This document shows positions 3,355 to 7,455 of a stretch of DNA of 21,970 nucleotides, piece after piece. How positions within the stretch are numbered: the stretch's first letter is position 1; every line of letters starts with the position of its first letter. Location of the stretch: IMG/VR virus record IMGVR_UViG_3300033182_000867, positions 1 to 21,970 of that record. One strand, written 5' to 3'. The notes beneath the pieces are model-generated. The model saw nothing but the letters and a program-made list of their open reading frames with translations. It ran no database searches and was not told the DNA's origin. Source of the DNA: a virus. The position numbers and the translations under genes are program-made.

Positions 3355-3394
3355 GCACAGAGGGTCTTCTAGGGGTCTCTCTGTGCTTTATATT
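3355..3394 (+). promoter_or_regulatory. intergenic cassette 2: hairpin touching a -10 element, before the helicase
   Basis: GCACAGAG (3355-3362) pairs with CTCTGTGC (3379-3386) across a 16-base loop. The -10-like TATATT (3389-3394) follows almost at once. The downstream leader does not carry the full AGAGTCAA box. The helicase ATG is at 3416. The hairpin may end the upstream transcript. Confidence 0.5.
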
Positions 3395-3415
3395 ATCTAC
3401 ATCAACACAGCACAC

Positions 3416-4603
3416 ATGATCACTCTTCGTCCACATCAACAGCGCATCATTGATCGTATGGGGAAGTATGATAAAGGTAAAATACTGGTGCCTACTGGCG
3501 GCGGTAAAACTCTCACCATGATTCAGGATACTATTCATCAGCAGGCAATTCCTGTTGGTATTACTACGGTTGTTGTTGCTCCTCGTATTCTCCTTGCAGA
3601 GCAACTTTGCAGTGAGTTTCTTGAGTTGGTATCTACCACATACACCCATGTGATGCACGTTCACAGCGGTGAAACTCACCACTTCAGCACTACCAAAGCA
3701 GACAAAATCCATGTGTTTGCTAACACTGCCCGCGACATGGGTGAGAATGTTATCATCTTTACCACCTACAATTCTCTGCAACGTATTGTTGATGCAGATA
3801 TTGAGGTCAACAACATCTATTTTGACGAGGCACATAACAGTGTAAAGAAGAACTTTTTCCCTGCTACTGAGTTCTTTGCAGAGAACGCAGATCGTTGCTA
3901 TTTCTATACAGCAACCCCTAAACATTCTCTGACTCCTAAGAAACCAGGCATGAATGATACTGAGGTTTATGGTCAGGTTCTTGCTAACATCCCTGCACCT
4001 GAGTTGGTTGAAGGTGGTTATATTCTCCCTCCCAAAGTTGTAGTCAAGCAACTGGAGATGGTGCAAGACAAGCAGAAGATTTATTCCCGTGATTGTGACT
4101 TTCTGATGCAGACCATTGATGATCAGAAGTCTGATAAAGTTCTGGTCTGTGCGCGCACTACCAAACAGATTATTGGTCTTCTGACTGATAGTGACTTTGC
4201 TCTTGATTGTGCCAATCGTGGTATGTCTTGGATGACAATCACATCTAAGACTGGTGCAATCATTGACGGTCAGAAAGTCAATCGTGAGCAATTCTTTGAG
4301 ACACTGAACACTTGGGGTAAAGATCCTGAGAAGAAGTTTATTGTTCTGCACCACTCTATTCTATCTGAAGGTATCAACGTCAGTGGATTGGAAAGTGTTA
4401 TCTTCCTTCGCAACATGGACTACATTGGTATCAGTCAGTCTATCGGTCGTGTGATTCGTTTGGGTGATACTTCTAAGACTTTCGGTCTTGTTTGTGTCCC
4501 TGTTTATGACTCTGTGGGTATCACTACCTCTCGCAAAGTTCAGGCAGTTGTTGATACTGTCTTCCAAAAGGGACTCCCAGCAATCTCGGAGATTCGTCGA
4601 TAA
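3416..4603 (+). CDS. superfamily II DEAH-box helicase
   Basis: This 395-residue protein unwinds or remodels nucleic acid using ATP. Visible motifs in order: Walker A PTGGGKT (residues 26-32), DEAH (137-140), TATPK (165-169, motif III), and QSIGRVIRLG (341-350, motif VI with two arginine fingers), preceded by SEGINVSGLE (motif V). The start follows the promoter at 3389; an in-frame ATG at 3383 lies inside that promoter and is rejected. In T4-like phages this type of helicase (UvsW and relatives) acts in recombination and replication-fork remodelling. This one is shorter than UvsW (about 500 residues), so I do not use that name. It heads a run of DNA-metabolism genes, each with its own promoter cassette. 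Confidence 0.9.
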   Translation: MITLRPHQQRIIDRMGKYDKGKILVPTGGGKTLTMIQDTIHQQAIPVGITTVVVAPRILLAEQLCSEFLELVSTTYTHVMHVHSGETHHFSTTKADKIHVFANTARDMGENVIIFTTYNSLQRIVDADIEVNNIYFDEAHNSVKKNFFPATEFFAENADRCYFYTATPKHSLTPKKPGMNDTEVYGQVLANIPAPELVEGGYILPPKVVVKQLEMVQDKQKIYSRDCDFLMQTIDDQKSDKVLVCARTTKQIIGLLTDSDFALDCANRGMSWMTITSKTGAIIDGQKVNREQFFETLNTWGKDPEKKFIVLHHSILSEGINVSGLESVIFLRNMDYIGISQSIGRVIRLGDTSKTFGLVCVPVYDSVGITTSRKVQAVVDTVFQKGLPAISEIRR

Positions 4604-4605
4604 GG

Positions 4606-4675
4606 TGTGCCAGTTGGTCAAAGTGTCCACCATCCCCCCACAGGGGATGGTTTTCATGTATATTAAAAGAGTCAA
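4606..4675 (+). promoter_or_regulatory. intergenic cassette 3: hairpin plus 19-base box, before the MutH-like gene
   Basis: The words TGTGCCAGTT (4606-4615) and AAAGTGTCCACCA (4620-4632) come first. A 9-base-pair hairpin, ACCATCCCC (4629-4637) with GGGGATGGT (4643-4651), is followed by TTT and could terminate transcription. Then comes the box TGTATATTAAAAGAGTCAA (4657-4675; -10 TATATT 4659-4664). The next ATG is 12 bases further on. Confidence 0.7.
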
Positions 4676-4687
4676 AGGCATCCGATC

Positions 4688-5287
4688 ATGTCCGACAAAC
4701 TTTCCACCATCCAAGCAGTTGCCAAAATTAAGGTAACTGATTTTCGTGGGTTTGGTAAACCCAAAAAGAACAAAGGTTCTCGCGGTCAACTGATTGAGTT
4801 GGCATTGGGTATCCCTAACAGCAGCAAATTGACTGACCTTGTTGATGGTGAGTTAAAAACTTTCATTGTTGGTGAGTCTATTGCAGTCACTTCACTAAAG
4901 CATTGTCTGTCCGACATTATTGACGGAACTGTTGAGTTTGAAGACAGCAAAGTCGGGCAGAAACTTGCACAAACCATTTACGTTGGGTTTACTAGGAACA
5001 ACGATTATGTGGGCACAGAACTTCTTAATAAAGAAGTTGACCCACAACACTATCAAGAACTTGCAGAGGATTATGGTTACATTGCTGCACAGATTAAAGC
5101 AGCATATGCAACAGGCAGTGAACTGCACACTATCACTGGACCGAATAAACTTCTGCAAATTCGCACTAAAGCATCCAAGAATAAATATGGTGAATATACA
5201 CCACTGTGCTATAATGGAGTTGAATTGAAAGACAAATATATGGCATTTTATCTTCTTGCAGACTTCGGAAAAAAGGTTATCAAATGA
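4688..5287 (+). CDS. MutH/Sau3AI-like DNA endonuclease (probable GATC specificity)
   Basis: The protein has 199 residues. Residues 29-58 (start KGSRGQLIELALGIPNSSKL, then GELKTF) match the catalytic core of MutH and Sau3AI: a Glu in the first helix (E37), an Asp (D50) and an E-L-K triad end (E55, K57). The C-terminal part LLQIRTKASKNK (155-166) then AFYLLADF (186-193) matches MutH's LQIRPKA and GFYLKKNF region. MutH nicks unmethylated GATC in hemimethylated DNA, while Sau3AI cuts unmethylated GATC on both strands; this protein has one MutH-like unit. The D-to-E spacing is shorter than in E. coli MutH by about two residues. It overlaps the adenine methylase gene by ATGA, so the pair is coupled. 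Its GATC specificity is inferred from the family, not seen. Confidence 0.8.
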   Translation: MSDKLSTIQAVAKIKVTDFRGFGKPKKNKGSRGQLIELALGIPNSSKLTDLVDGELKTFIVGESIAVTSLKHCLSDIIDGTVEFEDSKVGQKLAQTIYVGFTRNNDYVGTELLNKEVDPQHYQELAEDYGYIAAQIKAAYATGSELHTITGPNKLLQIRTKASKNKYGEYTPLCYNGVELKDKYMAFYLLADFGKKVIK

Positions 5288-5793
5288 CATCAACTGCACT
5301 CAAGGCACTAACAGCAACTACGGGCAATCGTACCGATTGTTGGAATACTCCTGTAGAATTTGTTGGTGATGTTGTTAAGTTCTTCGACGGGCAGATTGAT
5401 ACTGACCCGTGTTGTAATGACATCAACAATCCCAACGTACCTGCCAAGGTTCTTTATACTGAAGAAACGAACGGTTTAGCACATCCGTGGATGGGAAAGG
5501 TTTTTATGAATCACCCTTATTCTGATTCTAAAACCTGGGTTCCTTATGCTGCACTCCAGTATGAAACTGGAAATGCAACAGAAATGGTTCTTCTCATCAA
5601 ACTGGATGTTTCTACCAAATGGTGGAGAGCAATCACCAAATATCCGTGGATTGCTGTCAACAAACGACTAAAGTTTGGTGAAGGTAAAGGTGCTGCACCA
5701 TTTCAGTCTGCTATTGTATATCTTGGCAAAGATCTTGACCGATTTAAGAGTAACTTTGGCAAATATGGCACACTTTATGTGCCAGTTCATTAA
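5284..5793 (+). CDS. Dam-like phage DNA N6-adenine methyltransferase
   Basis: The protein has 169 residues and the layout of the phage N-6-adenine methyltransferase family (the short Dam type): WNTP (20-23) near the start, DPCCN (41-45) at the S-adenosylmethionine site, then the catalytic tetrapeptide NHPY (76-79) where family members have NPPY or DPPY, and SAIVYLG (142-148) near the end. It would methylate adenine in double-stranded DNA. The start ATG overlaps the stop of the MutH-like gene, so translation is coupled. The likely joint role is self-protection against the partner nuclease, or marking of phage DNA. The His in NHPY is unusual but the Asn, Pro and Tyr are kept. A hairpin (TGGCACA 5766-5772 with TGTGCCA 5778-5784) lies at its 3' end. 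Confidence 0.85.
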   Translation: MTSTALKALTATTGNRTDCWNTPVEFVGDVVKFFDGQIDTDPCCNDINNPNVPAKVLYTEETNGLAHPWMGKVFMNHPYSDSKTWVPYAALQYETGNATEMVLLIKLDVSTKWWRAITKYPWIAVNKRLKFGEGKGAAPFQSAIVYLGKDLDRFKSNFGKYGTLYVPVH

Positions 5794-5847
5794 AGTGTCC
5801 ACCAACTTAACCATGCCCACCTGATTCCTGTATATTAAAAGAGTCAA
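5766..5847 (+). promoter_or_regulatory. intergenic cassette 4: hairpin inside gene end plus 19-base box
   Basis: A perfect 7-base-pair hairpin (TGGCACA 5766-5772, TGTGCCA 5778-5784) sits at the methylase gene's 3' end. TGTGCCAGTT (5778-5787), four bases, then AAAGTGTCCACCA (5792-5804) repeat the arrangement found after the helicase gene. The box TGTATATTAAAAGAGTCAA is at 5829-5847 with -10 TATATT at 5831-5836. ATG follows after 12 bases. Confidence 0.65.
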
Positions 5848-5859
5848 CGGAACAAACCT

Positions 5860-6483
5860 ATGAACTTAATTGATCTTCTTGAGACAAAAGTTGATTGGAA
5901 CAAAGTTTTTGGTGTTGTGGAGGATCTTTACAATGATCCTGGATTTACTTCCCGTGCTGATAACTTTATCGTCTCCAGTTCTGTAGAACTTGCACTTGCA
6001 GAGTTTTCTCCACTGTTTCGCGTAGATCAGATTGGATATGATTTTATCTGTGAAGGAACTGATGCTACAGGGGCAGAAATTACTATCATCGGTGAATATA
6101 AAGGGGAAGCAGTTGAACTTAAGATGAGAAAGAAACTGTTTTATTCTCCCCGTGGAAAGAATCCACACAACACACAAGATGTAAAGATGAAGAACTTTCA
6201 GGGTGACAAGAAAACTCTGAAAGATTTTCAAGAGCAAAAAACATTTAACAAACTGATTGTTCTTGACCTTGGTGGTTGGGAACAAAATGACTATAAAGTT
6301 CTTGTTATTGAGGATGAAGTTGCACGGTCTCGTTATTATGAAAAGGGAGATGGTGTCTTCGCAAAGTTTCAACTTGGAGATTACTACAAATGTGATATTG
6401 GAGAGGTAAATCCTGTTCGTTCAGATATTCTTTTGAGTGATATTATTAACGAAGCAAAAAAGAACTGGATTCGTAATCGTTGA
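5860..6483 (+). CDS. possible PD-(D/E)XK nuclease, unknown specificity
   Basis: The protein has 207 residues. I do not recognise a named family. The segment IGYDFICEG (58-66), then EYKGEAVELKMRKK (79-92), has the spacing of a PD-(D/E)XK active site: D61, then E86-L-K88 at the end of a strand. The following part is Lys-rich (DVKMKNFQGDKKTLKDFQEQ) and could contact DNA. A well-ordered strand, NKLIVLDLGG, follows, as expected in the core sheet. Its position just after the GATC nuclease and methylase pair, with its own copy of the same promoter box, suggests related work on DNA. It may equally be an unrelated phage protein with a chance ELK. Confidence 0.6.
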   Translation: MNLIDLLETKVDWNKVFGVVEDLYNDPGFTSRADNFIVSSSVELALAEFSPLFRVDQIGYDFICEGTDATGAEITIIGEYKGEAVELKMRKKLFYSPRGKNPHNTQDVKMKNFQGDKKTLKDFQEQKTFNKLIVLDLGGWEQNDYKVLVIEDEVARSRYYEKGDGVFAKFQLGDYYKCDIGEVNPVRSDILLSDIINEAKKNWIRNR

Positions 6484-6549: not shown

Positions 6550-7455
6550 ATGAAAAACACGCATCTCCAACACCCCGAAGATTCTATCCTGACGGGTGAT
6601 CTTTCTGTCCTTGATTGGTTCCTCGCTGAGAGTGAACTTTCCGTGAAAATTGATGGTTCTCCTGCTATTGTTTGGGGAACAAATCCTGCAACTGGTAACT
6701 TTTTTGTCGGAACTAAATCTGTCTTCAATAAAGTAAAGATCAAAATCAATGAAACGCATGATGACATTGATCGCAACCATTCTGGGGTTGTTGCTGATAT
6801 ATTACACCATTGTTTTGATTGCCTTCCTGATTACGACGGGATTGTTCAAGGTGATTTTATTGGGTTTGGTGGTGATGATACTTTTTGCCCCAATACGATT
6901 ACTTACATTTTTGATGAAATAATTGACCAGAACATTATCATCGCACCTCATACATTCTATGATACTGTGACGGGTCAACTTAAGGATGCTTTTGTTATTG
7001 ACAAATCTTATCCTTTTGATGATACTGAGACCTGTAAGTTCGTGCAACCCCGTGCATGGCAGATTGATGAAGATTTTGAGGAGATTGTTGGTTTCGCTCG
7101 TCAAATGTCAATGCTGTGTGAGTTCATGAGTGACAAGCAATCACAGCAGATTCAGCAACAACTTAACAGCATCATTCGTGCTGGTTTGGATATTGATGAC
7201 CTGACGCTAGAAGCACTGGCATTTGTGAATGAAATCGACGTGAATGTATTGCGTTTGTGGTCTCTTGTCAAGTCAATCAAGGAGGATATGCTTTATCTCT
7301 GCCGTAATAATGGTCCTAAAGCATACATTGGCAACCGTCAATGTGGTGGCGAAGGTTATGTTCGCACCAACGATTATGGCATGTTCAAGTTAGTTAATCG
7401 TGAGCAATTCTCTCATGCAAACTTTAACAATGGTCGTTTTGCATGTGCCAACTGA
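6550..7455 (+). CDS. ligase-like covalent nucleotidyltransferase (putative RNA or DNA ligase family)
   Basis: The protein has 301 residues. It shows, in the right order, the motifs of the ligase/capping-enzyme superfamily: motif I SVKIDGSP (31-38) with K33 as the candidate AMP-accepting lysine; a Gly-rich VGTKSVF (53-59); motif III DGIVQGDFIG (96-105); motif IV GGEGYV (266-271); motif V MFKLVN (278-283) with K280. The spacing from motif III to IV is long because of an inserted helical region (about 165-255). Known family role: nucleotide transfer to a lysine, then to a nucleic-acid 5' end. Substrate (RNA, DNA or other) cannot be read from the sequence. It sits last in the helicase-nuclease-methylase run. 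Confidence 0.65.
   Translation: MKNTHLQHPEDSILTGDLSVLDWFLAESELSVKIDGSPAIVWGTNPATGNFFVGTKSVFNKVKIKINETHDDIDRNHSGVVADILHHCFDCLPDYDGIVQGDFIGFGGDDTFCPNTITYIFDEIIDQNIIIAPHTFYDTVTGQLKDAFVIDKSYPFDDTETCKFVQPRAWQIDEDFEEIVGFARQMSMLCEFMSDKQSQQIQQQLNSIIRAGLDIDDLTLEALAFVNEIDVNVLRLWSLVKSIKEDMLYLCRNNGPKAYIGNRQCGGEGYVRTNDYGMFKLVNREQFSHANFNNGRFACAN

Follow-up and report, generated by a model that had tools for sequence, protein, structure and literature searches.

The window analysed here, the whole 21,970-nt stretch of the IMG/VR virus record IMGVR_UViG_3300033182_000867, carries a gene for a predicted MutH-fold nuclease followed by a gene for an adenine methylase of the T1 Dam family, both on the plus strand and enclosed by two direct repeats of ~86 nt whose starts are 1172 nt apart (Table 1). 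The order of the region is helicase, repeat, nuclease, methylase, repeat and ORF207. An earlier note on this DNA had described a Dam-like adenine methylase that is coupled to the nuclease and starts on its stop codon; the two reading frames indeed overlap in this way (ATGA), and the match of the second product to PF05869 bears out the Dam-like assignment.

Table 1. Features of the nuclease–methylase locus in the window
Feature	Position	Strand	Evidence or remark
Left flank: SF2 helicase, phrog_16, outside the cassette	3383–4603	+	ResIII E 4.7e-16; phrog_16 E 1.1e-59
Left direct repeat, ~86 nt, holds the promoter-like motif TGTATATTAAAAGAGTCAAAGG just before the nuclease ATG	4606–4690	+	Repeat families; empty-site alignment; motif scan
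Predicted MutH-fold nuclease gene, phrog_15364, 199 aa	4688–5287	+	ORF; NCBIfam MutH; AlphaFold fold match; invariant residues
PF05869 (T1 Dam family) adenine methylase gene, 169 aa	5284–5793	+	PF05869 E 9.8e-16; TIGR01712 E 1.2e-14
Right direct repeat, overlapping the 3' end of the methylase gene, with the same motif ahead of the next gene	5778–5863	+	L332 and L333 have one copy here
Right flank: ORF207, 207 aa, family not assigned	5860–6483	+	Adjoins the helicase in L332 and L333

The nuclease falls by phrog assignment into phrog_15364, a family to which no function had been assigned. Its residues 25–198 match the NCBIfam MutH model NF003458 (E 1.2e-7; E 1e-8 for the homologue in phage S-CAM7) with a score of 31.1 bits, which lies below the curated equivalog cut-off of 243 and places the protein outside MutH proper. 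An AlphaFold model built from 42 homologues (pLDDT 82, pTM 0.81) had MutH as its top Foldseek match (E 4.7e-7); in structural comparison with VIA it aligned with MutH 2aor at Z 15.0 (183 residues, rmsd 2.9) and with the N-terminal and C-terminal domains of Sau3AI at Z 13.0 and Z 10.4, while other restriction enzymes reached Z values of at most 7.6. The comparison with MutH and Sau3AI that the earlier note had called for thus came out in its favour, and the confident match to a different fold family that would have spoken against it did not appear. The core residues it had named, E37, D50, E55 and K57, are all present, and in a HMMER alignment to Haemophilus influenzae MutH (2aoq) they correspond to the catalytic E56, D70, E77 and K79. 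In the same register R159, K161, Y188 and K92 fall on MutH R184, K186, Y212 and K116, and all eight nuclease residues are invariant among the 42 homologues. MutH positions were counted along the printed alignment as the chain index plus 8. As the alignment, made with a six-row profile, has an E value of 0.64, this register rests on the fold and not on the score. A profile of the 42 homologues did not match MutH among PDB sequences, and because the sequence profiles are this weak against the PDB, it is the fold and the NCBIfam match that carry the case. R184, K186 and K116 of MutH have functional roles. Its Tyr212 has been published as the methylation-sensing residue (PMC3848065).

Judged from the model and the conserved positions, the MutH fold and the E-D-E-K set are confirmed, which makes the product a predicted nuclease of the MutH/Sau3AI superfamily; by analogy, it would be catalytically active and specific for GATC. 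With 199 residues it forms a single domain and so departs from the Sau3AI type, which has two MutH-like domains in a long chain. None of the PADLOC models matched it. A divergent MutH-like branch (25–28% identity) was seen in the same neighbourhood in two relatives (L120, 3994–4662; L125, 4224–4901), in both of which a ParB-like gene separates it from the PF05869 methylase. A patterned scan of genome contigs for chromosomal homologues returned one contig, from a Rhodobacteraceae MAG and with neither of the two methylases nearby, and identified no bacterial source of the nuclease.

The window methylase scored 58.3 bits against PF05869 (gathering cut-off 28.1) and is therefore a member of this family, as is T1 Dam (YP_003925.1, 236 bits), with which it shares about 31–33% identity. 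The family may, we assume, also include non-specific enzymes. Motif IV of the window enzyme reads NHPY instead of the canonical NPPY and is invariant among the 10 relatives aligned; the PF05869 member from phage PT11-V22 has NHPF, which indicates that NPPY is not strictly family-defining. Among solved structures no credible match to the methylase was found, and the phage collection contained no isolate with the PF05869 clade of the window, all 409 matches being below 60% identity. GATC methylation has been demonstrated for T1 Dam, whose sequence is not significantly similar to that of E. coli Dam (PMC10470545). By analogy with T1 Dam, the window methylase would modify GATC.

Comparison with relatives delimited the cassette. 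In two records (L332 and L333), with about 79% and 86% identity to the window on the two sides, the helicase is followed by one intergenic repeat and then by ORF207, and the nuclease and methylase are both absent. Judged from the single repeat at this empty site, the nuclease and the methylase appear to be gained or lost as a unit by exchange between direct repeats. ORF207 was considered as a third member of the cassette and rejected, L332 and L333 having it without the pair. Further downstream, at 6550–7455, lies the gene of a DUF6267 protein whose sequence contains KIDGSP, a ligase-like motif; many relatives have a homologue of it beside their MutH-like gene. At the core of the repeat is a motif resembling GTGTATATTAAAAGAGTCAAAGGAA that precedes six window genes (at 2693, 4656, 5828, 7694, 9132 and 10010), all on the plus strand and none on the other, against 0.05 copies expected from shuffled sequences. 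This intergenic motif probably acts as an early promoter and also offers a substrate for the exchange of modules.

The clean empty site, with one repeat copy against the two that flank the cassette in the window, and the repeated swapping of the halves described below would also suit a selfish, homing-like element. Its nuclease would break the DNA of cassette-free relatives in co-infection, repair guided by the repeats would copy the cassette into them, and the methylase would be the antidote. We regard this as highly improbable: a four-base site would be cut everywhere, so that the empty site would not be singled out for cleavage, and since the repeat motif stands before six genes, ordinary repeat-mediated module exchange is enough. 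In its biochemistry such an element overlaps a restriction-modification-like pair.

In tblastn searches, 25 records of Synechococcus phages had the nuclease at 60–69% identity. In all of them it co-occurs with a Dam of the D12 class, unlike the PF05869 type of the window, and in 24 of the 25 the D12 gene lies directly upstream. In S-8S29 the two are fused into one 492-aa ORF (L005, 3119–4597), the annotation of which mentions only a DNA adenine methylase; in S-CAM7 the D12 gene is located elsewhere in the genome, away from the MutH-like gene. Compared with E. coli Dam, the cyanophage D12 methylase gives a match of E 3e-84 and conserves the NGLxRYN loop. A search with it yielded 64 cyanophage records at an identity of at least 60%, many of them near-identical isolates or RefSeq/GenBank duplicates, and each of the 64 carries exactly one nuclease, either the MutH-like (25) or a PF20472-like one of phrog_6124 (39), with no record having both or neither. 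S-IOM18 and S-RIM8 are examples with the MutH-like nuclease, ACG-2014b and S-RIM12 examples with the PF20472-like one. For this pairing the listed accessions were compared with totals by organism name; 60 of the 64 D12 records were among the matches listed, and two of the other four were checked directly.

The alternative nuclease, phrog_6124, matches the PD-(D/E)XK nuclease family PF20472 (E 1.4e-6); one PF20472-like gene lies at 5582–6004 of record L103. Its AlphaFold model (pLDDT 88) had a Foldseek match to BstEII (E 2.5e-4) and resembled a broad set of PD-(D/E)XK enzymes with a best Z of 9.7; MutH was absent among the matches listed, which by itself excludes nothing. By sequence profile and predicted fold, phrog_6124 is thus a putative PD-(D/E)XK nuclease of a sequence family other than the MutH-like one. 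In more distant phages PF20472-like nucleases adjoin other methylases or none, so a nuclease of this family need not be GATC-specific when it is the partner. In one record (L304, 4989–6420) the PF20472-like nuclease gene is overlapped by one of the Mom family (PF25680, E 3.2e-11), which is another kind of DNA modification partner.

To extend the comparison beyond isolates, we took a census of 134 IMG/VR methylase neighbourhoods, non-redundant at the DNA level and including the window. The D12 methylase was accompanied by the MutH-like nuclease in 20 and by the PF20472-like one in 11, the PF05869 methylase by the MutH-like in 25 and by the PF20472-like in 28, and a nuclease was absent within the fetched flank in 50. 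Neither both nucleases nor both methylases occurred together in any of the 134. Likewise, when 18 long records were searched with all four profiles, seven had a methylase with the MutH-like nuclease, five a methylase with the PF20472-like one and none had two of either kind; D12 alone was found in two short records and the PF20472-like nuclease without either methylase in three. The PF05869 gene usually overlaps whichever nuclease precedes it, and ATGA-type overlaps recur in many cyanophage contigs. Often a ParB-like gene (phrog_2558) is found close to the pair or between its two members (L101, 5000–5998; L130, 4447–5478; L001, 1992–3047). One of the 18 long records, the 236-kb phage record L140, has the PF05869 methylase and neither nuclease family.

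All four pairings of the two methylase families with the two nuclease families occur, the window having one of them, and each partner has been replaced by an unrelated enzyme. Quick trees were used to count these replacements. Along the PF05869 tree, which long branches leave uncertain in detail, there are at least 10 switches of nuclease type, six of them forced by well-supported branches, and along the D12 tree at least six (five so forced). The methylase type switches at least three times along the MutH-like tree and at least four times along the PF20472-like tree (two forced). Close relatives of the window methylase carry either nuclease. The modular exchange of both halves, together with the empty site, is a stronger finding than the pair itself.

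Could the two genes be neighbours merely through shared early expression, the nuclease serving general phage DNA metabolism (recombination, nucleotide scavenging or packaging) and the methylase solely the evasion of host restriction? Methylases without a nearby nuclease do exist (the 50 of 134 neighbourhoods and L140), and many freshwater relatives have more than 10 kb between the nuclease and the D12 methylase. We nevertheless consider this unlikely, because all 64 D12 isolate records have exactly one of the two nucleases, one fusion and a conserved overlap join the partners, the two nucleases are never found together and the pair is missing as a unit at the empty site. The pairing of nuclease and methylase is selected, not accidental. 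The overlap, the fusion, the 64 of 64 records and the census show a linked nuclease and methyltransferase conserved as a pair, as in type II restriction-modification systems.

Another function to be weighed is methyl-directed mismatch repair or strand marking by the phage, in which the methylase would mark old strands and the MutH-like enzyme would nick the new strand together with MutS and MutL of the host. The nuclease is single-domain like MutH and unlike the two-domain Sau3AI, and MutS and MutL, the partners of MutH, are both present in cyanobacteria, although MutH itself reportedly occurs in a group of gamma-proteobacteria only (PMC4390886). The earlier note had seen neither MutS nor MutL in view, and the same holds for relatives: a search of 25 relative records, seven of them isolate phage genomes scanned over their full length, gave no MutS, and a search of 13 gave no MutL, the positive controls being detected both times. 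Their absence makes mismatch repair unlikely, and the replacement of the MutH-like gene by that of an unrelated PD-(D/E)XK nuclease counts against it as well, since such a swap is not expected if docking on MutL is required. Overall, we judge this function quite unlikely.

MutH, Sau3AI and E. coli Dam all act on GATC. That two unrelated families of GATC methylases alternate beside one family of MutH-like nucleases points to one shared site, and a GATC site common to the nuclease and the methylases would best explain the alternation. MutH hardly cuts fully methylated GATC (PMC3848065). The window contains 79 GATC sites (~3.6 per kb, observed/expected 0.65); special avoidance of GATC was considered and rejected, several other palindromes having similar ratios. 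AGCT (2 sites, observed/expected 0.07) and GGCC (1 site, 0.10) are nearly absent from positions 1–21970, possibly a trace of host restriction.

Taken together, the pair probably is a GATC restriction-modification-like cassette of a T4-like cyanophage, directed against non-self DNA of the host or of a rival. The host of the window phage would, judging from its relatives, be a cyanobacterium. Nuclease and methylase would be co-transcribed and translationally coupled through the ATGA overlap; the methylase would methylate phage DNA at the adenine of GATC and thereby protect it, and the MutH-fold nuclease would nick or break DNA with unmethylated GATC sites, that is, DNA other than the phage's own, be it the host chromosome or a co-infecting phage. 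At ~3.6 sites per kb, the phage's own GATC sites would need such protection. The GATC methylase DmtA is present in nearly all cyanobacteria except picocyanobacteria (PMC4390886), and as the latter are reported to be without it, the DNA of marine Synechococcus should be open to a GATC nuclease. The data fit attack on the host and exclusion of rivals alike. We favour this cassette over mismatch repair on the basis of the co-occurrence, the fusion, the swapping of methylase types and the absence of MutS and MutL from complete relatives.

Several observations count against the cassette. MutH alone is a weak nickase that is stimulated by MutL, and in the PF05869 operons the nuclease gene comes first, an unusual order for a toxic restriction enzyme. 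The low identity to T1 Dam, the NHPY motif and the methylases without a nearby nuclease, in 50 of the 134 neighbourhoods and in L140, likewise speak against it, as do the ordinary frequency of GATC in the window and the different or absent methylases beside PF20472-like nucleases of more distant phages. Of the restriction-modification-like unit proposed in the earlier note, the MutH/Sau3AI kinship and the Dam coupling stand and have gained comparative support, and cutting, the GATC site and the target are predictions that follow from them; the note identified the parts correctly and probably also the nature of the unit.

Lytic cyanophages degrade and recycle host DNA, and to our knowledge it is not settled by what means a phage that lacks modified bases leaves its own genome intact. 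A GATC nuclease guarded by a methylase would be a directly testable answer. More tentatively, the cassette could be a restriction-modification module whose GATC target is fixed and whose halves (D12 or PF05869; MutH-like or PF20472) are independently interchangeable, and which distinguishes self from non-self DNA in place of T4-style base hypermodification. Such a kit of cutter and marker, its halves repeatedly exchanged, hints at a way in which cyanophages might distinguish their own DNA from host or rival DNA. Moreover, the two-by-two exchange of unrelated nucleases and methylases would amount to a natural experiment on the assembly of restriction-modification pairs, and phrog_15364 and phrog_6124, formerly without function, gain a concrete functional proposal.

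In the literature covered, which was incomplete, we found no paper on cyanophages with MutH, on cyanophages with Dam and GATC or on such a phage-encoded system. The nuclease resembles MutH and Sau3AI in fold (Z 15 and 13), in the catalytic E, D, E and K and in the equivalents of R184, K186 and Y212, and MutH also in its single domain of 199 aa. It differs from MutH in its score (31 bits against the cut-off of 243) and in that MutS and MutL are encoded neither nearby nor in relatives, from Sau3AI in lacking the second domain, and from both in its linkage to phage methylases of two unrelated types. With T1 Dam the window methylase has the Pfam family in common (33% identity over 100 aa), but no MutH-like neighbour is annotated in T1 and the cyanophage clade has NHPY as motif IV. 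The alternative methylase of the MutH-like nucleases is a close homologue of Dam, of the D12 class like E. coli Dam and DpnM, whereas the window has PF05869 in its place. Among viruses, the chlorovirus CviAI system is one for recycling host DNA, and the GATC system of melbournevirus (mel_015/mel_016) has been argued to exclude rivals (PMC7253447). Both likewise join an adjacent adenine methylase to a GATC nuclease proposed to act on host or rival DNA, GATC being the predicted site in our case; they belong to viruses of eukaryotes and have CviAI-type nucleases, whereas the cassette described here is found in a bacteriophage, has a MutH-type nuclease and consists of independently exchangeable halves. 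If our reading is true, it would be the bacteriophage counterpart of the restriction-modification systems of chloroviruses and marseilleviruses.
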